From Flaviaesturariibacter aridisoli (GTDB lineage: Bacteria > Bacteroidota > Bacteroidia > Chitinophagales > Chitinophagaceae), in NCBI RefSeq assembly GCF_004343705.1, contig NZ_SKFH01000006.1, positions 62,001 through 126,000 of the forward strand: a stretch of DNA of 64,000 nt. The letters are read 5' to 3'. Positions within the stretch are counted from its first letter, which is position 1, and every line of letters starts with the position of its first letter. Both the position numbers and the translations under genes were made by a program. The notes below the pieces were generated by a model. That model searched no databases and was not told the origin of the DNA. It saw only the letters and a program-made list of their open reading frames with translations. Below are positions 48,173 to 62,481 of the stretch, piece after piece.

Positions 48173-48190
48173 TTGATATTATTTGCAAAT

Positions 48191-48198
48191 TATATTTG
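48191..48198 (+). promoter_or_regulatory. -7 promoter box for TraB/GumN gene
   Basis: Perfect TATATTTG, 26 bp before ATG 48225. Confidence 0.5.
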
Positions 48199-48224
48199 TA
48201 CTCGAAATTCCCGAACCACTGCTT

Positions 48225-51200
48225 ATGAGCTCCTTCTCCCTGCGCCTCCGTACTTCATTCTTACTGCTCTTAGTCGTTGCCGCCACGGCCGTTTCGGCCC
48301 AGACGGCGCCGTTGCCGAAAACGCTGCTCTGGCGCATCTCCGGCAAAGGACTAGCCCGCCCGAGCTATCTCTGGGGCACCGTGCACATCAAAGACCGCCG
48401 TGTATTCCGCTTTACCGATTCGCTGTACCGCTTCCTCGAAACCTCCGACGGCTACGCCATGGAGCTCGACCCTGAGGAGGCAACGGCCACGGTGGTGCGC
48501 TTCTACGCCGAAAAAGACACGACGCCCCTGCTGCGCGACCTGCTGTCGCCGGCAGATTTCAGGCGCGTAGGCCCGAAGCTCGAAAAGGAGCTCGGCATCG
48601 CCGCTGAAGCGATCACGCAGCGCCGCGCCTGGATGTACCTGCAGGACCATGCCGACCTCCCGGTGCGCAAGGACGATATGCCCGAAGCGATGGACGTTTA
48701 CCTATACACCATTGCGCGCAGCAAGCAAAAAGTGGTAACGGGTATCGAAGACCTCAAAGACCAGTTCGATCCGGCCGAGGAAATGAAGACCGTCCTCGAT
48801 GTTGAACGGCTGCTCAAACACAACCGGCACGAGATCGGCTATTACGAAGACCTCGTGCGGGTGTATGTGGCGCAGGACCTTAGTCGCGTGGAGAGGATGA
48901 CCGCCAGCGATACGGCCGGCATTGAAGAACTCGTGCGCCGCAACCGAAAGATGGCGCGCCGCCTCGACAGCCTCATGGCGCTCCGCCCGACTTTTTTCAC
49001 GATGGGAGCCGCGCACCTGCCCGGCAACGACGGGGTCATCTCCCTGCTGCGCGCCCGCGGCTTTACCGTAGAACCCGTGCTCGGTGGCCGCAAAATCGAT
49101 CCATCCGACTACCATTTCGAACGGTCACAGATCGGGTGGGTGCGCAGCCAGAACGACTCGGCGAGCTACTCGGTGGAAACACCCGGTGCCATCGCGCCCG
49201 TAGGCACGCCGCCCCCCGGTATGGCGATGAGCGTTCATGCTGATGTGCATACCGAGATCGCTTACTTCCTGATGGATTTTCTCGTCGGTGGCAACGACCC
49301 GATCGACAGCGTGATCGTGCAGCGCTTCGCCCTGCTGCGCCAGGGAAAGAAGAAGGCCGGCCCCATCCGCCGCCTGCTCGTCAACGGCCGCAGCGCATAC
49401 GAGATGCTGATGGAAGACGAGGAGAAAACGCACTACCGCGTGCGCGGCATCGGTAACGGTCCGGAGGTCATCCTGCTGATGATCGGCACCCAGGACGAGC
49501 GCGAACTCAAGAGCACCGATGCGGAGCGTTTTTTTGGCTCCCTGAAGATCCTGCGCACCCGCAGCCTGCCCCTTGCTGCAACCAGCAACGAGCCCTGGCA
49601 GGAATACAGCGACAGCACCCGCGGCTACAGCGTCCAGTTTCCCGGCGCACCCGAAAAAGACGCCGACATGCTGCAGCAACTCCGGGCTGTTGACGCCGGC
49701 AGCTGGCGCATCGAAACGCGATCCTGGTTCGATGCCACGAACGCCCGCTTCTATGTGCTTGCCGTGCGCGAAACGCTGCCGGGCTACATCATCACCGACC
49801 CGAATTCGATCATCGAGGAAGCCGTGACCAACCTCCAGGCCCGCCCCGGGATCAGCATCACCAACATCGATACCGTCCGCCGCGACAAGTACCCGCAAAT
49901 GCGTGTGAACGGCTTCAACCGCGCCGGCGGACTCAGTGTGCGCTACTTCCAGCTCGTGCGCGGCAACCGCGTGTACCTCCTGCTGACCACCACCAATTCC
50001 GGCGGGCCCGACTCCCTGCTGGCCGATCGATTCTTCCGGAGCTTCCGCCTGTTGCCGTATCCCACCGACCGCTGGACAACGCAGTCCGATTCGGCCCGCA
50101 GCTTCAGCAGCACGGCCCCGGCTCCTTTCGAGCGGAGCACAGAGACCCAAACTGCCGACGGCCTTTCGGTGCAATACGTGGCGCACGACAGTGTGCGCAA
50201 AACTTCTTTCTACGTGGATGTGCACCCCCTGTCGCGCTACCGCTGGTATACCTCCGACAGCGCATTTTTCAGGCGTTGGCGTGATACCTATTACCAGTAC
50301 GGCGATAGCGTGCTTTCCACCGTGCCCATAACCAACGGCACGGTACAAGGCTACGAATACCGCTTCCGCAATGAACTCAAGACGATCAGCACCCGCCGCC
50401 TGCGCATCCTGCCTTCCGGCGACTCGCTCTATATGCTGTACAGCTACCTCCCCGAGACCGAGGTTGAAGGCAATGGTGCCGACGCCTGCTTCCGCGACTT
50501 CCGCATTGCATCGCCCGGCCCCTTCGTGCGCGACCGTGGCAACGTGGCGCAACTGCTCGCGGCACTGCGCAGCAACGATACCACCGTTCGTACCCCCGCA
50601 GTAGCATTCCTCGAAGAAGCCGTCTTTGAAAAGAAAGACCTCCCGGCGCTGCAGGAAGCTTTGCTCGAACCTTACTTCGATTTCGATTCCACCGGCACCA
50701 CGATCCACGACCACCTGCTGAAGGCCGTAGGCGGAATGGACGATCCCTCTACGGCCACCTTCCTGCCGCAGGCTTATCGCCGCCTGGCGCCCAACAGCCC
50801 GGTGAAGCTTTCGCTGCTGGGGCTGCTCGCGCAACAACAGACCGATGCGGCCTACGACAGCCTCAAGGCACTGCTCCTGCTGGGACCGCCGCCGGCGGGC
50901 TACTCGTCGGTACTGAGTTCTGCGCTGACCGATTCGCTGGCGCTTACCCGGCGCCTCTTCCCGGAAGTGGCCGGACTGTTCCGCGACAGTATTTCTACGG
51001 ATTGGCTCCTGCCGGCTACGGCCCGCCTGCTCGACAGCGGACTGCTGAAAAAGAGCGACCTCGCTCCCTACAGCGCTCAACTGCTGCAGCAGGCAAAGAA
51101 CCGGGTGCACGCGCACATCGGGGGCAACGACAACTGGCTGCTGCGTATCAACAACGTAATCACCTTTCTCCAATACTGGAATGAGCCTGCCGGTAACACC

Positions 51201-51707
51201 CTGCTGCGCGCACTGCTCCGCGGCCCCGTTGGTTATCCACAGGTGAATGCCGTGGAAGCGCTGCTTCGCAACAAGCAGCCGCTCGTTGTAGCCGATGTGC
51301 TGCCGCTGGCCGCCGACCGCGGCACCCGCCCCGCGCTGTATACGGCGCTGCAGGGACTCAAGCGTGCCGATCTTTTCCCGGTCAAATACCGCAACCAGTC
51401 TTCCTTCGCGGAGAGTGCCGTATACTCGGCCGCCAATGATGAATACGAACTGAAACGCTCTGTGTTCGTAGGCACCCGCGATGAGCTGGTGAATGGACGA
51501 AAGCGTCGCTTCTACCTGTATAAGGTCTTCTTTGTCGGCGACGACGCGAAAGCCGGCTATCCCGCCGTGGCCGGCCCGTTCAGCACCAACCCTGCCGAGC
51601 CGAGCAACGACGACGTTACGGCCCACGTGTCGTACGTAGCCTACAGCGCGAAAACGATGCAGGATTGCATCCGGGAGTTTATCGATGACGAATTGTCCGA
51701 CCAATAG
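48225..51707 (+). CDS. Large secreted TraB/GumN-domain multidomain protein
   Basis: A 1160-residue exported protein. The signal peptide ends near V-S-A-Q (25). A TraB/GumN (TIKI-like) domain spans about 30-300 with the paired GxxH motifs Y-L-W-G-T-V-H (48-54) and M-G-A-A-H-L-P-G, plus the A-M-E-L-D glutamate. Such motifs suggest a metal-dependent hydrolase, by analogy to TIKI proteases. Three roughly 150-residue modules follow (about 300-470, 475-640, 640-810), each starting with an S-Y-S-V-x-x-P-G or similar stretch. A helical, HEAT-like region runs to the end. ATG 48225 is chosen for the signal peptide. Confidence 0.75.
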   Translation: MSSFSLRLRTSFLLLLVVAATAVSAQTAPLPKTLLWRISGKGLARPSYLWGTVHIKDRRVFRFTDSLYRFLETSDGYAMELDPEEATATVVRFYAEKDTTPLLRDLLSPADFRRVGPKLEKELGIAAEAITQRRAWMYLQDHADLPVRKDDMPEAMDVYLYTIARSKQKVVTGIEDLKDQFDPAEEMKTVLDVERLLKHNRHEIGYYEDLVRVYVAQDLSRVERMTASDTAGIEELVRRNRKMARRLDSLMALRPTFFTMGAAHLPGNDGVISLLRARGFTVEPVLGGRKIDPSDYHFERSQIGWVRSQNDSASYSVETPGAIAPVGTPPPGMAMSVHADVHTEIAYFLMDFLVGGNDPIDSVIVQRFALLRQGKKKAGPIRRLLVNGRSAYEMLMEDEEKTHYRVRGIGNGPEVILLMIGTQDERELKSTDAERFFGSLKILRTRSLPLAATSNEPWQEYSDSTRGYSVQFPGAPEKDADMLQQLRAVDAGSWRIETRSWFDATNARFYVLAVRETLPGYIITDPNSIIEEAVTNLQARPGISITNIDTVRRDKYPQMRVNGFNRAGGLSVRYFQLVRGNRVYLLLTTTNSGGPDSLLADRFFRSFRLLPYPTDRWTTQSDSARSFSSTAPAPFERSTETQTADGLSVQYVAHDSVRKTSFYVDVHPLSRYRWYTSDSAFFRRWRDTYYQYGDSVLSTVPITNGTVQGYEYRFRNELKTISTRRLRILPSGDSLYMLYSYLPETEVEGNGADACFRDFRIASPGPFVRDRGNVAQLLAALRSNDTTVRTPAVAFLEEAVFEKKDLPALQEALLEPYFDFDSTGTTIHDHLLKAVGGMDDPSTATFLPQAYRRLAPNSPVKLSLLGLLAQQQTDAAYDSLKALLLLGPPPAGYSSVLSSALTDSLALTRRLFPEVAGLFRDSISTDWLLPATARLLDSGLLKKSDLAPYSAQLLQQAKNRVHAHIGGNDNWLLRINNVITFLQYWNEPAGNTLLRALLRGPVGYPQVNAVEALLRNKQPLVVADVLPLAADRGTRPALYTALQGLKRADLFPVKYRNQSSFAESAVYSAANDEYELKRSVFVGTRDELVNGRKRRFYLYKVFFVGDDAKAGYPAVAGPFSTNPAEPSNDDVTAHVSYVAYSAKTMQDCIREFIDDELSDQ

Positions 51708-51738
51708 CTGCCGGCGTACTTTTACGGAAAGGAATGTT

Positions 51739-52623
51739 ATGAAAAGCGCCGCGCGTTTCCTGTTGTGCTGCCTGCCGCTGTGGCTGGCCCTGCGTGCCGG
51801 CGCGCAGGGCGACTACCCGCCGACGCTCCTGTGGCGGATCTCGGGCGCCGGGCTGAATGCAGACTCCTACCTGTGGGGCACCATCCACCTGCAGGACCGC
51901 CGCGTATTCGCTTTTACCGACTCCCTGTATTATTTTCTGGACCAGACCCGCGCCTTTGCCATGGAGCTCGATCCTGAGCGGGCAGGGGCGGAGCTGTTGC
52001 CGTTCATGCTGGCGCAAGACACATCGGCCTTTGTGTATACCGTGCTTCCCGATTCGGTGTTTCGCAAGCTGGGTCCTGTGCTGGAGCGCGCGTTGAACAA
52101 GCCTGCACGGACCGTCCGGCGCAAGGAAGCCTGGCTCTATGCGCAGCTGCGACCCTACCGCCGGCGCCGCCCCGACGATATGGAGCAGCCGATGGACCTG
52201 TATCTACAGCAGTTGGCGCGCCGCGGGGGTAAGCCGGTGCTGGGCATCGAAGACCTTAGCGACCAGTTCAACCTCGAGGAAGTGCTCAGCGGCCCCTTCG
52301 ATACACAGGGCATTCTCGACAGCGAAGAGTCGGTGCGGGCGCAGACGGAGCAGTTGACCCAGCTGTACCTGCGGCAGGACCTGGCCGGCATCGAGCGACT
52401 CAGCTACGGCGACAGCTCGGAGTTTGTACGCAAGTTGCTGCGGCGCAACCGGAAGATGGCGGTACGTATGGACAGCATCGCGCGGCGGCAACCTACTTTT
52501 TTCGCCATCGGCGCCGGGCACCTGCCGGGCCCGGAAGGCGTGCTGGCGCTGTTGCGGCGGCGCGGCTTCAGCGTCACGCCGGTGCTCGGCGGACGTCCCA
52601 TCGAGCCGCGAACAGAACGGTAA
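51739..52623 (+). CDS. TraB/GumN-domain protein, paralogue of its neighbour
   Basis: A 294-residue secreted protein made of a signal peptide (F-L-L-C-C-L-P-L-W-L-A-L-R-A-G-A-Q) and a single TraB/GumN domain. It is closely similar to the N-terminal domain of the preceding gene: both read L-L-W-R-I-S-G-x-G-L, then Y-L-W-G-T-x-H and R-R-V-F-x-F-T-D-S-L-Y. Metal-site motifs G-T-I-H (47-50) and I-G-A-G-H-L-P-G are intact. It starts 31 bp after the larger gene, pointing to tandem duplication followed by domain gain or loss. It ends 73 bp before the next start, with a palindromic operator in between. Confidence 0.82.
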   Translation: MKSAARFLLCCLPLWLALRAGAQGDYPPTLLWRISGAGLNADSYLWGTIHLQDRRVFAFTDSLYYFLDQTRAFAMELDPERAGAELLPFMLAQDTSAFVYTVLPDSVFRKLGPVLERALNKPARTVRRKEAWLYAQLRPYRRRRPDDMEQPMDLYLQQLARRGGKPVLGIEDLSDQFNLEEVLSGPFDTQGILDSEESVRAQTEQLTQLYLRQDLAGIERLSYGDSSEFVRKLLRRNRKMAVRMDSIARRQPTFFAIGAGHLPGPEGVLALLRRRGFSVTPVLGGRPIEPRTER

Positions 52624-52672
52624 GTGAAAAATAGTTTGCGAAAAGTTTGGAATAGAGCGGGAAAGAGTATTT

Positions 52673-52689
52673 ACTTTGTAATGCAAAGT
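52673..52689. promoter_or_regulatory. Operator 1: ACTTTG-N5-CAAAGT
   Basis: Perfect 6+5+6 palindrome (ACTTTG-TAATG-CAAAGT) ending 7 bp before the ATG at 52697. It matches operator 2 in both half-sites, spacer length and distance to the start codon. It is the likely binding site for the HTH regulator encoded at 53332. Confidence 0.75.
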
Positions 52690-52696
52690 GCTTTTT

Positions 52697-53335
52697 ATGA
52701 ATGAGCAAACCCAATCCCTCGAGGCGATCCAGGACATCCGCCGCCTGATGAACCGCTCCAGCCGCTTTTTGTCGCTGAGCGGATTGAGCGGTATTGCCGC
52801 CGGCATCTGGGCGTTGGTGGGTGCTTTCGTGGCGGCGCGGCTTCTGGCACCCTACCACGGACGCCTGCTGAATACCTACCAGGTTCGTGAAGTAGAGGCG
52901 CTCATCTGGTCGCTGCTGCTGCTGGCGGGAGGCGTGTTTGCGCTGGCGCTGGCTTCCGCGTTCTTCTTTACCTGGCGCCGCGCGCGTCGCCGCGGGTTGC
53001 CCATCTGGGACCGCACCGCGCGCCAGCTTACCACCAACATACTCATCCCGCTCATCACGGGCGGCTTGGTCATCCTGTGGTTGCTGCAGCTTCGCCTGCC
53101 CGTGCTGGTGGCGCCGGTATGCCTCATCTTTTACGGTCTCGCGCTGGTGAATGCCAGTAAATATACGGTCAACGATATCCGTTACCTCGGTGTACTGGAG
53201 ATCCTGCTCGGCCTGATCAATACGCAGTACCTTGGCTACGGGCTTTATTTCTGGGCGCTCGGCTTCGGGCTGCTGCATATCGTATACGGTTTTATCATGT
53301 GGTGGAAAAACGAGCGTTCGGACAAGGAAGCATGA
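52697..53335 (+). CDS. Six-helix membrane protein, first gene of the HTH operon
   Basis: A 212-residue membrane protein with a soluble N-terminal 25 residues (E-A-I-Q-D-I-R-R-L-M-N-R-S-S) and about six transmembrane helices (about 27-48, 70-95, 112-130, 133-150, 158-175, 178-200). I do not recognise a named family beyond the pattern of Bacteroidota membrane proteins paired with a small HTH regulator. It overlaps the regulator gene by 4 bp (ATGA), so the two products are made together. Operator 1 lies directly upstream. Confidence 0.75.
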   Translation: MNEQTQSLEAIQDIRRLMNRSSRFLSLSGLSGIAAGIWALVGAFVAARLLAPYHGRLLNTYQVREVEALIWSLLLLAGGVFALALASAFFFTWRRARRRGLPIWDRTARQLTTNILIPLITGGLVILWLLQLRLPVLVAPVCLIFYGLALVNASKYTVNDIRYLGVLEILLGLINTQYLGYGLYFWALGFGLLHIVYGFIMWWKNERSDKEA

Positions 53336-53637
53336 GCCACAAGAATCCCATAGCAGGCCTCAATAAACTGTTCGATAACCGGATCCGCCTGGGTGTGATG
53401 AGCATTCTCGCGGTCAACGAGGAGGTAAGCTTCAACGACCTGAAGCAGTTGCTGGAAGTGACCGACGGCAACCTCGCCACGCACCTCGTAAGCCTGGAAG
53501 AGAACGGCCTGCTCAAGGTGCACAAGGGATTCATCGGGCGCAAAACCAACACCACCTATTCCATCACCAAAGCCGGGGAGAAGTCTTTCAACGACCACAT
53601 CCAGGCGCTCGAAAAAATGATCCGCGGTATCAAGTAA
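53332..53637 (+). CDS. Small winged-helix transcriptional regulator (HTH_27/ArsR-PadR-like)
   Basis: A 101-residue single-domain DNA-binding protein. F-D-N-R-I-R-L-G-V-M-S-I-L opens the winged helix. The helix-turn-helix is S-F-N-D-L-K-Q-L-L-E-V-T-D-G-N-L-A-T-H-L (about 33-52), and the wing is G-F-I-G-R-K-T-N-T-T-Y-S-I-T. It lacks any ligand domain or metal-binding Cys pairs, so it is probably a dimeric repressor controlled by something in its operon. Two matched 17-bp palindromes bracket it, one before its own operon and one before the next gene. Confidence 0.9.
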   Translation: MSHKNPIAGLNKLFDNRIRLGVMSILAVNEEVSFNDLKQLLEVTDGNLATHLVSLEENGLLKVHKGFIGRKTNTTYSITKAGEKSFNDHIQALEKMIRGIK

Positions 53638-53654
53638 TTTTTTTTTGCCCTTAC

Positions 53655-53671
53655 ACTTTGAAATACAAAGT
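53655..53671. promoter_or_regulatory. Operator 2: ACTTTG-N5-CAAAGT
   Basis: Perfect palindrome (ACTTTG-AAATA-CAAAGT) ending 7 bp before the ATG at 53679. The sequence after it (RCTTTTTATGA) is the same as after operator 1, indicating a duplicated control region. Confidence 0.75.
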
Positions 53672-53678
53672 ACTTTTT

Positions 53679-54188
53679 ATGAAAAATGAATTTCCCCTCC
53701 AACGCATCCGCCTTCGCCTCGCGCTCTTCATCGTTGCGCTCTTTGTCAGCGGCCTCACCGTGTGGCCCGCTGCTGCGGAGCTGCGCTTTGCCCTGCAGCT
53801 GGTGCCCGCCGGCAGCCCTGTGGCTGGCTGGCTGGGCCAGGTGCTGGCGGCCTATGAAGAAGTGAATGCAACACACGCTTTCCTCTACTATGGCTACGAC
53901 TGGCTTGCCTTCGCCCACCTCGTGCTGGCCGCACTTTTCATCGGCCCCTGGCGCGACCCGGTACGCAACCGCTGGGTACTTGAGTTCGGGATCGGGGCCT
54001 GCATCGCCATCTTTCCCCTTGCCTTTATTGCCGGCGGCCTGCGCGGCATCCCGTTCTGGTGGCAGCTGGTCGACTGCAGCTTCGGCGTCATCGGGCTCGT
54101 CGTGCTGTGGCCCTGCTACCGGGCGGTGCGCAACTATGAACGTGGACCCCAACATCGATACACCGAAACCCAAAATCAATACGCATGA
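53679..54188 (+). CDS. Four-helix membrane protein
   Basis: A 169-residue membrane protein with about four helices (about 9-30, 66-86, 98-118, 124-146) and the pattern Y-E-E-V-N-A-T-H-A-F-L-Y-Y-G-Y-D-W-L-A near residue 55. Its family is not recognised. It directly follows operator 2 and overlaps the radical SAM gene by 4 bp, so it is the first gene of the second transcription unit controlled by the HTH protein. Confidence 0.7.
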   Translation: MKNEFPLQRIRLRLALFIVALFVSGLTVWPAAAELRFALQLVPAGSPVAGWLGQVLAAYEEVNATHAFLYYGYDWLAFAHLVLAALFIGPWRDPVRNRWVLEFGIGACIAIFPLAFIAGGLRGIPFWWQLVDCSFGVIGLVVLWPCYRAVRNYERGPQHRYTETQNQYA

Positions 54189-55582
54189 AAATCAAGATGA
54201 TCCTGCCGGCATTGATGGAAGCCAAAAGCCCCTTCTGGCGACCGATCAAGTACTCGCTCTTCCCGCCCCTCGGCCTGGCCACACTCGCCGCTTTTACATC
54301 GCCTTCCGACGAGGTGGAGCTTTGCGACGAGCATGTGGAGGAAGTACGCAGCGACGATGCGCCTGATCTCGTGGTCATTCAGGTGTACATCACCAACGCG
54401 GCACGCGCCTACGAGCTGGCCGACAGCTACCGCAGGCGCGGCATACATGTGTGCCTCGGCGGACTGCATGTTACATCGCTGCCGCTCGAGGCAGGCGCCC
54501 ACGGCGACACCATTTTCATCGGGCCGGGAGAGGATACCTTCCCGGAATTCCTCAGCGACTTCCGTAATGGCTCGGCGAAGCGGGTGTATGTAAACCGTGA
54601 GTGCAGCCTGCAGGCCCTGCCGCCAGTGCGGCGCGACCTTATCCGGCGCGAGCGTTACCTCGTGCCCAACTCGCTCGTGGTGTCGAGGGGCTGCCCGCAC
54701 CACTGCAGCTTTTGTTATAAGGATGCTTTTTTCGAAGGCGGCCGATCGTTTTACACGCAACAGGTGGACGCGGCGCTGGCCGAAATAGACTGGCTGCCCG
54801 GCAGGCACCTGTATTTTCTCGATGACCACTTGCTGGGCAACCAGCGATTTGCTTCCTCCCTGTTTGCCGGTATGAGCGGGATGGGCCGGCTCTTCCAGGG
54901 GGCTTCCACCGTGGATGCGGTAGTGCGGGGCAACCTGATCGAACAGGCCGCACGTGCGGGGCTGCGCAGCACCTTCGTCGGGTTTGAAACCCTCAGCGCC
55001 GCCAACCTGGCGCAGGGCAACAAACGGCAGAACCTGGGCCGCGACTACGGCGAGGCCATCCGCCGCCTGCACGACCTGGGCATCATGATCAATGGTTCCT
55101 TCGTATTCGGACTCGATGACGATGGCCCCGACGTGTTTGCCCGCACCGTCGACTGGGCCGTGCAGCAAGGACTCACCACGGCCACTTTTCACATATTGAC
55201 GCCGTACCCCGGCACCCGCCTTTTTGCAGATATGGAAAAGGAAGGCCGCATCCTGCACCGCGACTGGAGCAAGTACGATACGCGGCAGGTAGTGTACCAG
55301 ACGCGCGGCCTCGATGCGGTGACGCTGAAGAAGGGATATGACCGCGCCTACAAAGACTTCTATTCCTGGCGGAACGTGTGGCGGGCCAGCGCGCAGCACG
55401 CCGCCTGGCGCGACCGTATCCGGCACTTTTCATATGCCGGCGGCTGGAAAAAGTTTGAGCCACTCTGGAACTTCCTGATAAAAACCGGTGGCCTGTCGCG
55501 CATGTTGCCACTGCTCGAATCCATCCTGTGTACCGAGGCGGGGAGCCGCAAGGAAGATCGCTTCCGTCCCGCCATCGCCTGA
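54185..55582 (+). CDS. B12-binding-type radical SAM protein
   Basis: A 465-residue protein. The N-terminal roughly 135 residues resemble a cobalamin-binding domain (F-P-P-L-G-L-A-T-L-A-A-F, L-G-G-L-H-V-T-S-L-P). The radical SAM core has cluster motif C-P-H-H-C-S-F-C (near 170) in V-V-S-R-G-C-P. T-F-V-G-F-E-T-L and F-V-F-G-L-D-D-D continue the core. The B12 domain lacks an obvious D-x-H-x-x-G, so cobalamin may be bound base-on or not at all. Reactions in this class include methylations and rearrangements on lipids or peptides. Its place among membrane proteins suggests a lipid-linked or membrane substrate. Confidence 0.85.
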   Translation: MKIKMILPALMEAKSPFWRPIKYSLFPPLGLATLAAFTSPSDEVELCDEHVEEVRSDDAPDLVVIQVYITNAARAYELADSYRRRGIHVCLGGLHVTSLPLEAGAHGDTIFIGPGEDTFPEFLSDFRNGSAKRVYVNRECSLQALPPVRRDLIRRERYLVPNSLVVSRGCPHHCSFCYKDAFFEGGRSFYTQQVDAALAEIDWLPGRHLYFLDDHLLGNQRFASSLFAGMSGMGRLFQGASTVDAVVRGNLIEQAARAGLRSTFVGFETLSAANLAQGNKRQNLGRDYGEAIRRLHDLGIMINGSFVFGLDDDGPDVFARTVDWAVQQGLTTATFHILTPYPGTRLFADMEKEGRILHRDWSKYDTRQVVYQTRGLDAVTLKKGYDRAYKDFYSWRNVWRASAQHAAWRDRIRHFSYAGGWKKFEPLWNFLIKTGGLSRMLPLLESILCTEAGSRKEDRFRPAIA

Positions 55583-55697
55583 ATCCCTGTCGTTGCCTGA
55601 ACCAATGTGCCCAGCCTTTCCAAACGCTGTGGCCGTCGCTGCTGCGTTGCCACATGCGGTTTTCTTAACCATCTTATCACCGGTCAAACATGACGCT

Positions 55698-56102
55698 ATG
55701 AACACCTTTCGCTTTGTACTCTACACCTGGTTGTGTACGGTCGTGGCTTACCCGCCTCTTGTGTTGCTCTTCGATGTGCTCACCCGTAGTAATACGGAAG
55801 GGCGCCTCTTCTTTCCGCTGCTTGCCGGCGCCTTTGTGCTCGGGATCCCGGGCTTACTGCTTGGCTGGCTTTCCCTGTCGCTGCTGCAGGTGCGGCGCCT
55901 GCCACTGCTGGTTCAATATTGCCTGTGGACGGGTGCCGTGCTGTTGCTGATCTACCTCACGCTGACGGTGCTCGGCGGGCCGCGCCTGCTCGATATCCAC
56001 GGCGAGCTGGCCCGCTTCGTACTACCGCTTTTCGGCGCCGCCATGCTGGTGCTGCTGCTGCGCTATCCCTACTTCCGCGAAATCCCTCTTAACGAATACT
56101 AA
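55698..56102 (+). CDS. Small four-helix membrane protein
   Basis: A 134-residue protein that is nearly all membrane: helices at about 5-25, 38-58, 72-94 and 105-122. It ends in a charged tail (Y-F-R-E-I-P-L-N-E-Y). No family is recognised. It lies 115 bp after the radical SAM gene and 10 bp before creD. The frame is open upstream, but ATG 55698 gives the membrane protein start. Confidence 0.65.
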   Translation: MNTFRFVLYTWLCTVVAYPPLVLLFDVLTRSNTEGRLFFPLLAGAFVLGIPGLLLGWLSLSLLQVRRLPLLVQYCLWTGAVLLLIYLTLTVLGGPRLLDIHGELARFVLPLFGAAMLVLLLRYPYFREIPLNEY

Positions 56103-56112
56103 ATCCACATGT

Positions 56113-57432
56113 ATGGTCTCCCATCTGAATGAGCAATCTTCCAAAAGCAAGATCCTGATCAAAGTCGCCGTCGTCGCCGTCATCATCCTCGTGCTCCTGC
56201 TGCCGGCATGGAAAATAGAGCAGCTGGTGTCCGAGCGCGAAGAGCGGCAAAAAGAAGCCGTGGCCGAAGTGAGCGACAAATGGGCCGGCCGGCAGCTGCT
56301 GGGCGGGCCGATGCTGGTGCTCCCGTACCTCATTCGCTATACCACCGCAGAGGGCAAGCAGATGCAGTCGCGGCACTACGCTTACTTCCTGCCCGCACGC
56401 CTCGACCTGAAGGCATCCGCCAGCCCGCAGGAGCGGCACCGCGGTATTTACAAAGTGATGCTGTATTCGGCACAGGTTGCCATGAGCGGGGAATTCGACA
56501 CCCCCGACCTGGCATTGCTGCATATCAGTCCCGATCAGGTGCTGTGGGGCGAAGCCTTTGTCAGCCTGCGCTTGTCGGATGTGCGCGGCCTAAACGAGGA
56601 GTTGAGCCTCAACTGGAACGGCCGGCGCCTCCTGTTTGCGCCTAACACGTCGCCGGATCCCTACAGCGATTCGTCGCTGGCCGCACCGCTGCCGCTGCAA
56701 GGCCCCTTTGACCTCGGGCACACGGTATTCTCCGGCAACCTGCAGCTGAATGGTTCGCAGCAACTGCTGTTCGCACCTCTGGGAAAGACCACGACCGTAG
56801 AACTACAGTCGTCGTGGCCGCACCCGAGCTTCAGCGGCACCGGCCTGCCGCAGCGGAGCAGCGTTACGCCGAAAGGCTTCACGGCTGCCTGGCGGAGCCT
56901 GGCCCACCGCCGCAATTTTCCGCAACAGTTCCGTGATGCCGACCGCATCGACAGCCGCACCTACGACCTGTCGGCTTCCGCCTTTGGCGTCGATCTGTTT
57001 GTGCCCGTAAATGCCTACCAGAAAACGCTGCGCTCGGTGAAGTACTGCCTGCTCTGCATCGTGCTCACGTTCACCGCGTTCTTCCTCATCGAGGTGGTGC
57101 ACAAGCGATCGGTGCACCCGTTCCAGTACGGACTGATCGGGCTGGCCCTGATCCTTTTTTACGCGCTGCTGCTCTCGTTCTCGGAGTATATCGGTTTCAA
57201 CCCCGCCTATGGGGTGGCTACGGTTGCCACAGTGGGCCTGATCGGCTGGTTTGTGCGGGGACTGCTTCAGTCGGGGCGCCTCAGCACCTTGCTGTCTGCC
57301 GTGCTGGTGCTGCTTTACGGCTACGTGTTTACCATTTTGCAGCTACAGGATTTTGCCCTCCTGCTGGGCAGTGTCGGACTTTTCTTCACCCTCGCCGTGG
57401 TCATGTATTTCTCACGGAAGATCAACTGGTAA
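56113..57432 (+). CDS. creD: CreD-family inner membrane protein
   Basis: A 439-residue protein of the CreD family. An N-terminal helix (about 16-36) is followed by the periplasmic domain with the family stretch W-A-G-R-Q-L-L-G-G-P-M-L-V-L-P-Y. A C-terminal block of about five or six helices (about 310-436) contains F-Q-Y-G-L-I-G-L-A-L-I-L-F-Y and G-F-N-P-A-Y. CreD is an envelope protein of unknown action, linked in Enterobacteria and Aeromonas to CreBC-type regulation. Here it lies in a Bacteroidota-type cluster headed by the HTH_27-like regulator, without a CreBC two-component pair. Confidence 0.92.
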   Translation: MVSHLNEQSSKSKILIKVAVVAVIILVLLLPAWKIEQLVSEREERQKEAVAEVSDKWAGRQLLGGPMLVLPYLIRYTTAEGKQMQSRHYAYFLPARLDLKASASPQERHRGIYKVMLYSAQVAMSGEFDTPDLALLHISPDQVLWGEAFVSLRLSDVRGLNEELSLNWNGRRLLFAPNTSPDPYSDSSLAAPLPLQGPFDLGHTVFSGNLQLNGSQQLLFAPLGKTTTVELQSSWPHPSFSGTGLPQRSSVTPKGFTAAWRSLAHRRNFPQQFRDADRIDSRTYDLSASAFGVDLFVPVNAYQKTLRSVKYCLLCIVLTFTAFFLIEVVHKRSVHPFQYGLIGLALILFYALLLSFSEYIGFNPAYGVATVATVGLIGWFVRGLLQSGRLSTLLSAVLVLLYGYVFTILQLQDFALLLGSVGLFFTLAVVMYFSRKINW

Positions 57433-57435
57433 CCC

Positions 57436-58125
57436 ATGCGTTTTTTCAACCGGATCGTTGCTGCCGTTCGTCGCCTTGACGCCGCCGAGCGGGTGCTGCT
57501 GGCCTCTATCGCTTTTCCCGCAGGCCTTTCCGCCTGGCGCTTTGCCTACAGCGGCAGCCGCTTTTTTCTTTTTCTCAACTGGAACCTGCTGCTGGCCCTC
57601 ATCCCTTTTCTCCTCACCCGGCAGCTGCTGCGCCGCGTCGATTGGATCGAAAGCCGTTGGGGCTTCCGCTTCCTGTTCGGGCTGTGGCTGCTGTTTCTCC
57701 CCAACACGTTTTACATCAGCACCGACCTGCTTCACCTGCGGCAGCGGCCCGGGCTTCCACTCTGGTACGACCTGGTGCTGTTGCTGGCCTTTGCCTGGAA
57801 CGGCTTGTTGCTGGGGGTACAATCGTTATGGCAGATGGAGCGCGTGCTGCTGGCGCGCTGGGGCTTGCGGCGCAGCTGGCTCTTCGTATTCCCGGTGCTC
57901 GCCCTGTGCAGCTTCGGGGTGTACATCGGCCGCTACCTGCGCTACAATAGCTGGGACCTGCTGCTGGCGCCGGGTGGCCTGGCCCGCGACCTGTTCGACC
58001 TTTTTCGTCATCCCTTCGCCAACCGCTTCGACTGGAGCATGATCGTGTGCTTCTTCGGGTTTCTCGTGCTGGTGTACGAATCGATGCGGCGCACGGCAGC
58101 AGAGAAAGGGCCAGGAGGCAATTAA
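57436..58125 (+). CDS. DUF1361 membrane protein
   Basis: A 229-residue polytopic protein that matches DUF1361: L-N-L-L-L-A-L-I-P-F-like helices (here L-N-W-N-L-L-L-A-L-I-P-F), then F-L-P-N-T-F-Y-I-S-T-D-L-L-H-L (near 92-107), G-V-Y-I-G-R-Y-L-R-Y-N-S-W-D near 162, and about seven helices. Function unknown. It starts 3 bp after creD and ends the cluster, before a strong hairpin terminator. Confidence 0.85.
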   Translation: MRFFNRIVAAVRRLDAAERVLLASIAFPAGLSAWRFAYSGSRFFLFLNWNLLLALIPFLLTRQLLRRVDWIESRWGFRFLFGLWLLFLPNTFYISTDLLHLRQRPGLPLWYDLVLLLAFAWNGLLLGVQSLWQMERVLLARWGLRRSWLFVFPVLALCSFGVYIGRYLRYNSWDLLLAPGGLARDLFDLFRHPFANRFDWSMIVCFFGFLVLVYESMRRTAAEKGPGGN

Positions 58126-58272: not shown

Positions 58273-61200
58273 TTAAAAGTCCAGGCCCAGCGCGAAGTAC
58301 GACATCGGCTTGCCGCGGAAGAAGCCGTTCATTTCCCAGGCAATGTCCCAGCGGATGAAGTAGCCCAGCAGCGTGCTGCGCAGACCGAAGCCATAGCCGC
58401 CGGCGAAGGGTCCGATCCCGCCGGCCTTCAGGCGCACCGTGATCGGGTTGATACCGCTCGGGTCGCTGTACGTGCTGGTGGGGCGGGCGATGTTGGATAC
58501 GTCGCCGGTCCAGGCCGTGCCCAGGTCAAAGAACTGCACCGCCTGCAGGTTGCGCAGGAAGGCGTTGTTGATGGGACGGTTGAAGAAGGTGCTGAAGATC
58601 GGCGCGCGGAACTCCGAGTTGATCACCACGTTGTTGTTGCCGTTGGCAATGTTTTGCTTGAAGCCACGCATGTTCACCGCCAGGGTCTGGTAGGCATAGA
58701 ACTGGCTCTGGTCGGGCGCATTGGCCGGGTCGGCATTGAAGTAGCGGTAGCCCGTCACCTGCTGGGTGTTCGGGTCGATGATCTCGTTGCTCTTGAACTT
58801 GAGCCAGCCATCAACGCCGCCGAGGTAATACACCACTTTCTGCTCGGCAAAGGAGAAGTCGCCGGCGGCGCGCAGCGCCCAGATCACGTTGCGGTACAAT
58901 GGCTGGTAATGACGTGCGTCGAAGCCGGCGTTCATCATCGTGCGGCCGAAAGCCTGGCCACCTTTATCGAGGCGGCTGAAGTAATCGAAATACACCTTGT
59001 AGCGGAGACCGGTCCAGATGTTGGTGGCGGGGTTGAGCGTGTTGTCGTGCACGTACTCGATCGTGGCCTGGCCGAATACTTGTTTCTGGTCGGGGATCAG
59101 CAGCGACAGGCGGTTGAAGCCGGGCTCAGGCGTCGTGGAAACGATCACGCGGTCGAAGCGCGGGCCGACCGTGAGGCGCAGGCTGCGCACCTTGTCGAGC
59201 GCGAAGCGCAGGCGGCCGAGGTAGTAGTTGGAGTGCGTCTTTCCGGGGAAGCCTACCTGGAAGAAGTTGCCCGAGGTGTCGGCAAGGATCACGCCCACGT
59301 CGGCGCGGGCCGAGCTGCGGTAGTACGTGAAGCCCCAGTCGAGGCGGCGGCGGTAGTTGGTGAACTCGAACAGGATGTCGTTGTCGCGCAGGTTCGGCGC
59401 GATGCGGAAGCCGCCCGAGATCTTGTAGTCTTCAAACAGGTCGACGGTACCCATGCGGATGAGGCCGTTGATCTGGCTGCCGTTGGAGGGATTGATGGGC
59501 CCCGTGCCGCCGGTGTATTGCTGGTACTTGGCGGCAGCCAATACGGCGTTGTTGAAGCCGGCGGCTACATAGTCGGTAAAGAAGCGCGGCGGGCGGTATT
59601 CGTACAGCTTGGCGCGGCTCAGTACCGGCTCGGGAGCGATCACCTCGGTTTCGAACACCTGCCCCGGCGTTGTGGTCGGCTGCGCTGCCGCATTGGCGCT
59701 GTCGCGTTTGTCGTTGAACTCGCTCTGGAAGAAGTCCGTTTGCGTTTTACGTGTGGAGTCCACCGCGTTGGTCATGGTGTTGGTCTCGGTGGTACGGAGG
59801 CGGTCGCGCTCACGGAGCTTGCGCACGTATTCGGTGGGCGGTGTGCTCACGTTGCGGCGGCGCAGCGTGTTTTCATCCACCCGCAGGCGGTACAGGTTCT
59901 TGTATTCACCCTGCTGCACCACTTCGCTCACCAGTGTGTTGTCGCCGGCGGTGCGCGTTTCGATCAGTCCCGCCTGGTAGTTGGTGAGCGGGAACACGTA
60001 GGCCGAGTCGGAGCTCGTGGCAAAGTAACCCACCGAGTCGATGTCGGTCTTTTTCCACTCCTTCAACAGGCTGTCTACCTCTTTCGGGGCCGGGTTGCGC
60101 ATCACTTCATCGCCGATGAACACGAGCGTGTCGATGCCCGTCTTTTGCGTGGTGAAGAAGCCGGCGTAGCGGTTGTTGATGCCGTTCTCGTCGGAGGTGA
60201 AGGTGAAGTGCGTGTTGTTGTAGGGCGACGGGTTGCGGGCGTTGCCGAACTTCAGGTTGGTGAGCTGGGAGATCTGTTTGAATTCGCTTTTGTTCCAGTT
60301 GTCTACCAGGAAGATGTTGAAGCGCGGGCCGGGCATCGCCGTATCGCCGCCCGCTGCGTTGGCGGAAGGGCGGTTGGAGGCGAAGACGATACCCGTTTTG
60401 TTGGGGAAAGTCACAAAGGAAGGATCCAGGTCGTCAAACACGTCGTTGGTCACCTGCTCGTAGGTCATCTTGTCGATGTTGTACGTGTAGATATCGCTCT
60501 GGCCCGAGCGGACCGCGCTGACCACGAGCGTGTTGGAATTGAGCATGTACTTGATGTCCTGCACCTGGTCAAACTGGCTCCATTCCTGCTTCGAGATCTT
60601 GATGCGGTTCACCACGTCGTACACGAAGAATTTGAGCTTGCCTTTTTCCACGTATACCACGGCGAGGCGCGTGCCTTTGTTGTCCCAGGCCAGGATCGGC
60701 ATGTTGGGGTTGATCTCGTCTTCGCGGCTGCGGTGGCCGTAGGAGAGAAGCGTTTTGGTGTTCACGAAGTTCTCGTGCAGCACCACGCTGTATTTGCCTT
60801 GCTTGTATTCCGTTACCGCGTAGGTAAACGAGCGCGGCAGGGGGTTGGCGTTGAAGCGGATAAAGTCTTTCTTGCCCACTTCTTCCGTAACCGAGAGCTG
60901 GCCCTTGGGCACCACGCGGCGGCCGCGGATGTCTTTGTAGTAGATGTTGGGCATCTCCTGCATGAAGTCGCGCAGCACCTCCTTGAATTTCTTCTTGGCG
61001 ATCTTCTGCGTAGCGCTGTTCAGGTTGCGGTAGATGCGGGCGAGGTAGAGCAGGTAGGTAGGTTTCGTGGCGCCGTACTTGTTGCCGACGTAATACCAGA
61101 AAGCGTGGCCGGCGAGCTCCGGCTTTTCGAAAGCAAACTGGTAGAAGTTGTTGTACGAGCCGCCGAGCATGGCGTTCTTCAGCTGCTCGTCGAGCTCGGT

Positions 61201-61761
61201 GCTCCAGGGCTCGGCTGCGTAGGCGATGTAGCCGTCGGTGAGCCATTTGGGCAGGTCGAGCAGGGCCTGGTTGGCTGCGAATTCACCGAGGTCATCGCCG
61301 AAGAGGAGGTTCTGCACCAGCACCTGGGCGATGCCCTGGCGTACCTGGCGGCGCAGGTTGTTGCGGTTGGCGTCGTAATACACCACCATCTTGTTGTTCA
61401 CCAGCTTGGTGAGGCCACCGGTGCTTTGCCAGTCGATGCCCTGGCCGATGTTGGATTGCTGGAGATCGTCAAAGTTGTTGTACACCACCACGTTGGCGCG
61501 GCGTTGCATACCGTATTCCACGAACTCTTCCAGCTGCGGTAGCTCTTTCTCCGCAATCTGGGCCACGTACTTGCCCAGCTCGAGGCCGTTTTGGGAAAAG
61601 TAAGTGTTGAAGTTCTCGGTCTGGTAATATTTCCACTTGAATTTCTTGTACTGGACCCGGTTCTTCCCGTACTCCACGGTGTTGACCTGGGCCTGGCCAA
61701 GGAAAGGGAAAACGACACAGATCAGGACGGCCACGACGGCCCTCAGGCTCAGATGCTTCAT
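58273..61761 (-). CDS. Pseudo-peptidase/beta-propeller/outer membrane barrel protein
   Basis: A 1162-residue exported protein. After a signal peptide (to about 24), residues 35-260 align by eye with the peptidase-MA-like fold. However, where the H-E-x-x-H helix is expected the chain reads R-Q-G-I-A-Q (141-146), and the usual W-x-x-E-G becomes P-K-W-L-T-D-G (171-177). Residues of about 300-650 contain TolB/WD40-type repeats (F-A-S-N-R-P, F-T-S-D-E-N-G). About 760-1162 is a D15/Omp85-like barrel ending in A-L-G-L-D-F. Similar proteins in Bacteroidota are often labelled TolB-like. It probably sits in the outer membrane with a large periplasmic part. Confidence 0.7.
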   Translation of the reverse strand: MKHLSLRAVVAVLICVVFPFLGQAQVNTVEYGKNRVQYKKFKWKYYQTENFNTYFSQNGLELGKYVAQIAEKELPQLEEFVEYGMQRRANVVVYNNFDDLQQSNIGQGIDWQSTGGLTKLVNNKMVVYYDANRNNLRRQVRQGIAQVLVQNLLFGDDLGEFAANQALLDLPKWLTDGYIAYAAEPWSTELDEQLKNAMLGGSYNNFYQFAFEKPELAGHAFWYYVGNKYGATKPTYLLYLARIYRNLNSATQKIAKKKFKEVLRDFMQEMPNIYYKDIRGRRVVPKGQLSVTEEVGKKDFIRFNANPLPRSFTYAVTEYKQGKYSVVLHENFVNTKTLLSYGHRSREDEINPNMPILAWDNKGTRLAVVYVEKGKLKFFVYDVVNRIKISKQEWSQFDQVQDIKYMLNSNTLVVSAVRSGQSDIYTYNIDKMTYEQVTNDVFDDLDPSFVTFPNKTGIVFASNRPSANAAGGDTAMPGPRFNIFLVDNWNKSEFKQISQLTNLKFGNARNPSPYNNTHFTFTSDENGINNRYAGFFTTQKTGIDTLVFIGDEVMRNPAPKEVDSLLKEWKKTDIDSVGYFATSSDSAYVFPLTNYQAGLIETRTAGDNTLVSEVVQQGEYKNLYRLRVDENTLRRRNVSTPPTEYVRKLRERDRLRTTETNTMTNAVDSTRKTQTDFFQSEFNDKRDSANAAAQPTTTPGQVFETEVIAPEPVLSRAKLYEYRPPRFFTDYVAAGFNNAVLAAAKYQQYTGGTGPINPSNGSQINGLIRMGTVDLFEDYKISGGFRIAPNLRDNDILFEFTNYRRRLDWGFTYYRSSARADVGVILADTSGNFFQVGFPGKTHSNYYLGRLRFALDKVRSLRLTVGPRFDRVIVSTTPEPGFNRLSLLIPDQKQVFGQATIEYVHDNTLNPATNIWTGLRYKVYFDYFSRLDKGGQAFGRTMMNAGFDARHYQPLYRNVIWALRAAGDFSFAEQKVVYYLGGVDGWLKFKSNEIIDPNTQQVTGYRYFNADPANAPDQSQFYAYQTLAVNMRGFKQNIANGNNNVVINSEFRAPIFSTFFNRPINNAFLRNLQAVQFFDLGTAWTGDVSNIARPTSTYSDPSGINPITVRLKAGGIGPFAGGYGFGLRSTLLGYFIRWDIAWEMNGFFRGKPMSYFALGLDF

Positions 61762-61836: not shown

Positions 61837-62481
61837 ATGCTTACCGTACACACCTTCACCTTCAACCCCGTTCAGGAGAACACCTATGTGGTGTACAACG
61901 AAAAGGGCGCCTGCTGTATTATCGACCCGGGATGCTATTTCGCTTCCGAAGAGCAGCAACTGGCCTCGTTTATCGAAGCTAACGGCCTCCAACCGGTGCT
62001 GCTGCTCAACACCCACTGCCACCTGGATCATATTTTCGGCAACCGCTATGTGCAGCAGAAGTGGGGCCTCGAGCTCCACCTCCACCGCGCCGAGCTGCCC
62101 GTGCTCGAACGCGGCCCGGCATCCGGCCAGCTCTGGCAGCTGCCTTTCGTCAACTACGACGGCCCGATGCACTACCTCGACGAGGGCGATTCTGTCCGCA
62201 TCGGCGACGACGAGCTCCAGGTGCTCTTTACCCCCGGCCATTCGCCGGGCCACATCTCCTTCTACTCGCCCACACAGCGCTTCCTCCTCTCCGGCGACGT
62301 GCTGTTCAACGGCTCCGTGGGCCGCACCGACCTTCCCGGCGGCGACTTCGCCATCCTCGAAGAAAGCATCCGCACCAAGCTGTATACGCTCCCCGAAGAC
62401 GTGATCGTGTATCCCGGCCACGGCGATACGACCACCATCGGCGACGAGCGGCGGGATAACCCGTTTGTGAAAATGCAATGA
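61837..62481 (+). CDS. MBL-fold hydrolase (glyoxalase II-like)
   Basis: A 214-residue metallo-beta-lactamase-fold hydrolase. The metal ligands are seen in T-H-C-H-L-D-H (near 59-65), P-G-H-S-P-G-H (near 134-140), G-D-V-L-F and Y-P-G-H-G-D. These are the pattern of short glyoxalase II-like and persulfide dioxygenase-like enzymes; the substrate cannot be fixed from sequence. It starts 75 bp from the divergent large gene. A heptamer-repeat element begins at its stop codon. Confidence 0.9.
   Translation: MLTVHTFTFNPVQENTYVVYNEKGACCIIDPGCYFASEEQQLASFIEANGLQPVLLLNTHCHLDHIFGNRYVQQKWGLELHLHRAELPVLERGPASGQLWQLPFVNYDGPMHYLDEGDSVRIGDDELQVLFTPGHSPGHISFYSPTQRFLLSGDVLFNGSVGRTDLPGGDFAILEESIRTKLYTLPEDVIVYPGHGDTTTIGDERRDNPFVKMQ

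Follow-up and report, generated by a model that had tools for sequence, protein, structure and literature searches.

What governs the compact array of membrane-protein genes at positions 52673-58125 of a 64,000-nucleotide stretch of Flaviaesturariibacter aridisoli DNA (positions 62,001 to 126,000 of contig NZ_SKFH01000006.1, assembly GCF_004343705.1; hereafter the window)? The array encodes a 101-residue winged-helix protein (HTH), a membrane protein paired with it (M1) and, behind them, five further genes that include creD. It also carries two palindromes with identical arms, which an earlier reading, made without any database, had taken for operators. Our analysis indicates that HTH, a member of the HTH_34 family, is probably a dimeric autorepressor that would act on ACTTTG-N5-CAAAGT followed by RCTTT and would control its own M1-HTH unit, the CreD operon and unlinked envelope operons elsewhere in the genome. 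An autoregulated winged-helix repressor is a known kind of protein, and a small autoregulator next to membrane genes is a familiar arrangement; what seems to be undescribed, as far as we have seen, is the regulon, the motif and, most of all, the composite second site. We found no description of the regulator, the motif or the regulon in open-licence literature, in which DUF1361, the family of the last gene of the array, appeared only in an unrelated mention.

Two exact palindromes around a gene pair

Site 1, ACTTTGTAATGCAAAGT (52673-52689), and site 2, ACTTTGAAATACAAAGT (53655-53671), are exact 17-bp ACTTTG-N5-CAAAGT palindromes, each followed by 7 nt and then by an ATG, at 52697 and 53679 respectively, just as the sequence-only reading had described them. 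Their flanks, GCTTTTTATGA and ACTTTTTATGA, also bear out that reading, since both sites run on as RCTTTTTATGA. With the conserved flank included (RCTTT, from locus conservation, and ACTTT at site 2), the predicted operators span 52673..52694 and 53655..53676 on the plus strand. The sites had been said to bracket the regulator gene. HTH (53332-53637) does lie between them, but two genes are bracketed, the other being M1 (52697-53335), the end of which HTH overlaps by 4 nt.

Such palindromes are not expected by chance. The pattern was matched 0 times in 100 shuffles of the window, and a dinucleotide model drawn from the window predicts 0.0026 matches for 64 kb and 0.18 for 4.37 Mb. The genome-wide scan that the earlier reading had proposed returned three exact copies across the 4.37-Mb genome: sites 1 and 2 and, outside the window, a third (C52:10541-10557) lying 35 bp upstream of an ABC ATPase gene, which is followed by a gene for an ABC-2 permease with 68% identity to a relative's permease. 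The extended pattern, searched with up to 2 mismatches, added two more sites only, both poorer. An Rfam scan of the window returned 0 families.

Conservation of the sites with the regulator

The main comparison comprised 123 non-redundant M1-HTH loci (135 less 11 duplicates and one without M1), of which 20 (L110-L129) had been chosen partly for having sites, leaving 103 chosen by the regulator alone. At no more than one mismatch, site 1 was found in 117/123 loci (100/103 without L110-L129) and site 2 in 107/123 (90/103). The earlier reading had staked itself on palindromes upstream of orthologous clusters, and there they are. The RCTTT flank accompanies the palindrome in 116/117 loci at site 1 and 102/107 at site 2. 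The first ATG follows 6-10 nt past site 1 in 112/117 loci, and the distance is variable at site 2. Six loci count as misses for site 1: the sequence of L141 begins too late for the site to be tested, L171 holds a symmetric variant, and L059, L112, L116 and L117 each have an exact palindrome farther upstream. A set of 80 named loci, mostly from Chitinophagaceae and closest to ours in a metagenome-assembled genome (92%) and Flaviaesturariibacter flavus (89%), gave a similar picture: site 1 stood near the M1 start, at no more than one mismatch, in 74 of the 75 testable loci, a level that none of 1500 shuffled site-1 regions reached (0/1500), and in 65/80 site 2 lay no more than 60 nt past the HTH stop.

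The sites also track the regulator from genome to genome. Across 58 genomes, our own included, the extended site was present in 35 of the 37 that matched HTH at E<=1.1e-20 and in 0 of the 21 that did not (Fisher p 7.6e-14), and the reversed-pattern control gave 0 in all 58. The two exceptions, G006 and G014, have exact palindromes that carry another flank. From a 296-genome phylum draw we took the 73 genomes ranging from the same genus to the same class, the other classes being left out. Here the 52 genomes with a strong HTH averaged 2.42 exact sites, 51 of them having at least one, against a mean of 0.19 and one site in 4 genomes for the remaining 21; the reversed control gave 0.90 and 0.95, respectively. 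Conservation and co-occurrence thus lend strong support to the proposal of a small winged-helix autoregulator with the palindromes as its predicted operators. At the level of sequence, the regulator and its sites are conserved widely in Bacteroidota.

The regulator and its relatives

HTH scored 93.1 bits against PF13601 HTH_34 (cut-off 27, E 1.2e-26), and belongs to that family. The winged helix seen by the sequence-only reading therefore stands, but its label, HTH_27, does not by Pfam cut-offs: PF13463 gave 16.4 bits, below the cut-off of 22.2. The scores for MarR (PF01047, 16.2 bits) and PadR (PF03551, 17.8 bits) likewise lay below their cut-offs of 24.6 and 27, although the fold is nonetheless MarR-like. 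The structure was predicted with a mean predicted local distance difference test score (pLDDT) of 93. Its nearest solved structure by sequence, and the sole match at E<=0.01, is PDB 1ub9 (E 4e-10), which is also the nearest by fold (Foldseek E 1.4e-6, template-modelling score 0.81). This entry is PH1061, an HTH_34/MarR-like protein that shares with HTH a winged helix of about 100 residues and a long C-terminal helix. The two differ in what has been said of them, since the PDB titles speak of a hypothetical protein or regulator homologue and no operator for PH1061 was found in the literature searched. The fold also resembles that of the small protein Rv3488 (5zhc, 5zi8, 7wh4; Foldseek E 2.9e-5 to 2e-4), which is PadR-type, whereas HTH falls below the PadR cut-off.

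A second HTH_34-like paralogue, about 30% identical and with a different recognition helix, was met in L096-L109; none of these 14 fetched loci carried a site with up to one mismatch (14/14 negative). In several of them it follows an apparent membrane-protein gene and may represent a parallel system.

A putative promoter beneath site 1

In a flavobacterial transcription-start map (PMC9723704), the -7 box reads TAnnTTTG and lies at -12 to -5. A putative promoter, P1 (52646..52678, plus strand), combines a -33-like TTTG at 52646-52649 with the -7-like TTACTTTG at 52671-52678, to which the left arm of the palindrome contributes. The upstream element recurs: TTG stands at -28..-21 relative to the site 1 palindrome in 102/117 loci and is also visible in the logo. 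The left arm and the upstream TTG fit a promoter of which the palindrome would mask the start point, putatively near 52683 and so inside site 1, as well as some of the -7 box. Judged by its letters, then, the predicted operator overlaps the regulator's own predicted promoter. E. coli-type scans gave 2 promoters against a mean of 1.5 and 10 terminators against a mean of 7.8.

Our preferred explanation is as follows. An HTH_34 dimer would bind ACTTTG-N5-CAAAGT(RCTTT) and repress by occlusion; bound at site 1, where the left arm overlaps the predicted -7 box, it would block initiation of the M1-HTH transcript. Through site 2 it would control the CreD operon, and through further copies unlinked operons for envelope proteins, here the ABC-2 exporter. 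An envelope-related cue, possibly relayed by M1, might then lift repression and raise the whole set of membrane proteins. M1, which adjoins HTH in 79/80 named loci, would be a natural candidate for such a partner on the membrane side. At site 2 the repressor may act either on an atypical promoter of its own or as a block to read-through.

Unlinked sites and a proposed wider regulon

The earlier reading had confined the regulon to the regulator's own operon and the five-gene operon. Those genes are there, but the regulon appears to be larger, taking in the ABC-2 exporter of the same genome and unlinked sites in relatives. Among the matches listed there were 31 unlinked loci (26/27 at exact sites and 5 more); L083, where a cluster site is duplicated at the end of a contig, was dropped, and G040:C15 is not in the set. 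All counts for these loci refer to the matches listed. In 19/31 the site precedes a family that is present in the HTH cluster of another genome: the small membrane protein F10 (8 loci, assigned by eye for L077, L078 and L084), M2, the radical SAM protein, the VIT protein of the XrtN system (2), diacylglycerol kinase, DUF2809 (2), and F7, F12, F19 and F22, one each. An ABC ATPase stands behind the site in 4/31, and another four (L079, L087, L088 and L223) have other genes or no clear gene. Close to the ABC operon of our own genome lies a 603-aa open reading frame (L069:9641-11452) that looks, by eye, like a B12-dependent radical SAM protein.

Exosortase N offers a further association. XrtN, whose system is described by TIGR04476/TIGR04477, is encoded inside the regulator's cluster in 4 of 7 XrtN-bearing relatives, and in G031 it lies behind its own exact site, giving 5/7 relatives with XrtN/VIT genes at sites. 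G022 is a weak case, with an exact palindrome 93 bp upstream and the flank absent, and G044 has no site on its contig, which ends close by. The exosortase N system may thus belong to the regulon in some relatives; the window's genome gave no XrtN match. In L093, L045, L047, L048 and L067, the genes for exosortase N and for its VIT partner stand in or right behind sites, a possible lead to the control of that sorting system.

Several observations weigh against an HTH_34 autorepressor with so broad a reach. Site 1 matches the -7 box imperfectly, with the exact TAnnTTTG in only 25/117 loci. In 16/123 loci the first 220 nt after the HTH stop hold no site 2. Among the unlinked loci, four of 31 (L071, L072, L081 and L095) look like chance matches, the flank is absent at 8/29 exact sites, and TTG accompanies 9/21 flanked sites (8/20 without L083); the ABC site of our own genome has no TTG. 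Finally, G134 encodes a regulator about 70% identical and yet has 0 exact sites and two one-mismatch sites only.

A run of thymines before site 2

Site 2 is conserved, in keeping with the claim of a second operon under a second operator, but that it is an ordinary operator is doubtful because the promoter signature of site 1 is missing and a T-run stands there in a fixed register. TTG was found at site 2 in 1/107 loci and the exact TAnnTTTG in 5/107. A run of six or more T precedes the site in 101/107 (A6 or longer in 2/107), is 7 or 8 nt long in 93 of these 101, and ends exactly 8 nt ahead of the palindrome in 94. In the window it is a T9 run (53638..53646, plus strand) immediately 3' of the HTH stop, ending 8 nt short of the predicted operator 2. 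A search for the composite T7-N8-ACTTTG-N5-CAAAG found it in 27 of 58 relatives and in 86 of 396 class-draw genomes, with 0 in the reversed control. The sites at which HTH is followed closely by site 2 dominate: 81/107 lie 15-18 nt past the stop, so that spacing from the stop and spacing from the palindrome are mostly confounded. Eleven loci have site 2 more than 25 nt past the stop; eight of them keep the T-run, at a gap of 8 (3 loci), 9 (3), 10 and 11 nt, and three have no run.

No hairpin accompanies the run in its compact form. Ahead of it, the mean folding energy of 93 compact loci was -0.14 kcal/mol, against -0.63 in shuffles, and a hairpin at or below -6 kcal/mol was found in 0/93, against 13/465 shuffles; the window's locus has none ahead of its T9 run, and five single folds gave z values of 0.09, 0.28, 0.90, -0.64 and -2.56. 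The eight far run-bearing loci have weak hairpins (-3.16 against -0.33 kcal/mol in shuffles), and three unlinked composites from one genus (L255-L257) have strong ones, of -13.8 to -15.0 kcal/mol. Because hairpins stand in the far loci and in L255-L257 and none in the compact form, the T-run looks like a terminator U-tract from which the hairpin has been lost. In L255-L257, from three genomes, the hairpin and a T8 run lie directly before the palindrome, the upstream gene differs in L256, and the genes that follow are YiiX-like (by eye) or Coq4-like. A promoter in which the T-run served as -33 element and RCTTTT as -7 element was considered and rejected, as its start would fall past the window's ATG.

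Alternative explanations

Site 2 may be an independent promoter-operator of the second operon with an atypical promoter, the T-run being the end of the M1-HTH transcript or an element of the promoter; we put this not far below an even chance. Unlinked M2 (L089) and radical SAM (L092) genes have their own site with TTG upstream, L255-L257 combine the T8 run with TTTG at the -33 position, and the window's ATG, 7 nt past site 2, leaves no room for another promoter. The scarcity of TTG and of exact TAnnTTTG at site 2 counts against it. That same scarcity, together with the T-run in its fixed register and the hairpins of the far loci and L255-L257, would be accounted for if the bound repressor stalled a polymerase coming from P1, with the RNA 3' end in the U-run, and caused its release; with the repressor absent, P1 would transcribe the whole array. 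The spread of the composite among genomes agrees with such a block, as do the 16 loci that lack site 2, 15 of which have no T6 run within 60 nt and 14 an ATG no more than 25 nt after the stop. So does L075, in which a T8-N8 site lies 67 bp downstream of a site with TTG. Conversely, the TTTG of L255-L257 is what a promoter would have, the fixed spacing could mostly reflect compactness, the gap varies from 8 to 11 nt in far loci of which three have no run, and the polymerase-stalling geometry is presumed. We regard a read-through block as plausible but clearly short of evens. As the compact U-tract lacks a hairpin and has the operator 8 nt on, we propose, tentatively and somewhat against the odds, that the bound repressor replaces the hairpin: repressor and U-tract together would end the regulator's own transcript, and loss of the repressor would allow read-through into the envelope genes.

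Two further explanations touch both sites. An inverted repeat followed by T-rich sequence could, instead of binding a protein, form an RNA stem that serves as a weak terminator or in a leader, and in L171 the outer pair is compensated, G-C for A-T, a change equally expected of a symmetric protein site. Yet in 33/107 loci site 2 has an uncompensated A-C for its outer pair, and the two loci with exactly two mismatches comprise one compensated and one uncompensated (L173) case; loci with two changes had been filtered out of the arm pair counts, which are therefore uninformative on compensation in general. The start point placed inside site 1 and the extended sites that track the regulator gene across genomes make a stem more difficult still to credit, and we consider it very improbable. 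It is also improbable, if less extremely so, that HTH activates rather than represses, or that another regulator owns the site. Some winged-helix proteins do activate, but a position over the -7 box would be unsuited to activation, no other regulator family recurs among the cluster families listed, and the extended site is missing from every genome without an HTH orthologue (0/21). An HTH_34 autorepressor thus remains our preferred reading.

Possible function of the proposed regulon

CreD has been described as an inner-membrane protein that is regulated and on which the integrity of the envelope depends, with envelope defects in Stenotrophomonas mutants (PMC4689548). CreD is shared with the CreBC-CreD system of Proteobacteria; there a two-component system acts on creD, whereas here a one-component HTH_34 regulator is proposed. 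To judge by their names, other families behind sites, namely diacylglycerol kinase, exosortase N, DUF218 and the ABC-2 permease, also belong to the membrane or envelope, and our best guess is a regulon for envelope maintenance or stress.

These findings offer a probable operator, together with an extended motif and a regulon, for a family of regulators that is still uncharacterised, in a phylum where gene regulation has received little study. They link membrane proteins whose role in that phylum is not clear (CreD, DUF1361, DUF4153, DUF2809, diacylglycerol kinase, exosortase N) and a B12 radical SAM protein. The register of the T-run at site 2 poses a new and directly testable question, whether a repressor can gate elongation. 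If it does, initiation and elongation alike would be under the control of a single small protein in much of Bacteroidota.

Genes of the array and its neighbours

All seven genes of the array lie on the plus strand. M1 (52697..53335), a 212-aa helical membrane protein, has no Pfam or NCBIfam family. It stands beside HTH in 134/135 HTH-bearing loci, and L068 is also without it. Its structure was predicted with pLDDT 88 and found no match in a fold search against the PDB (best E 0.62). Behind site 2 come M2 (53679..54188), a 169-aa membrane protein without a family, and a 465-aa protein (54185..55582) with B12-binding (PF02310) and radical SAM (PF04055) domains, which reached no NCBIfam subfamily at its cut-off. 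M3 (55698..56102), a membrane protein of about 134 aa scanned from the second codon, also has no family. CreD (56113..57432) is identified by Pfam and NCBIfam profiles, with 483.1 bits against PF06123 (cut-off 23) and 466.9 against the equivalog NF008712 (cut-off 275). The last gene, at 57436..58125, encodes a DUF1361 membrane protein (PF07099 by Pfam profile).

Upstream of the array, the adjacent open reading frames 48183-51707 and 51736-52623 are alike near their starts (by eye), the shorter belonging to TraB/PrgY/gumN (PF01963). Downstream, the array is bounded by a large convergent gene (58273-61761, minus strand) with weak TolB-propeller matches below cut-off; a homologue is present within the locus in 52/80 named relatives.

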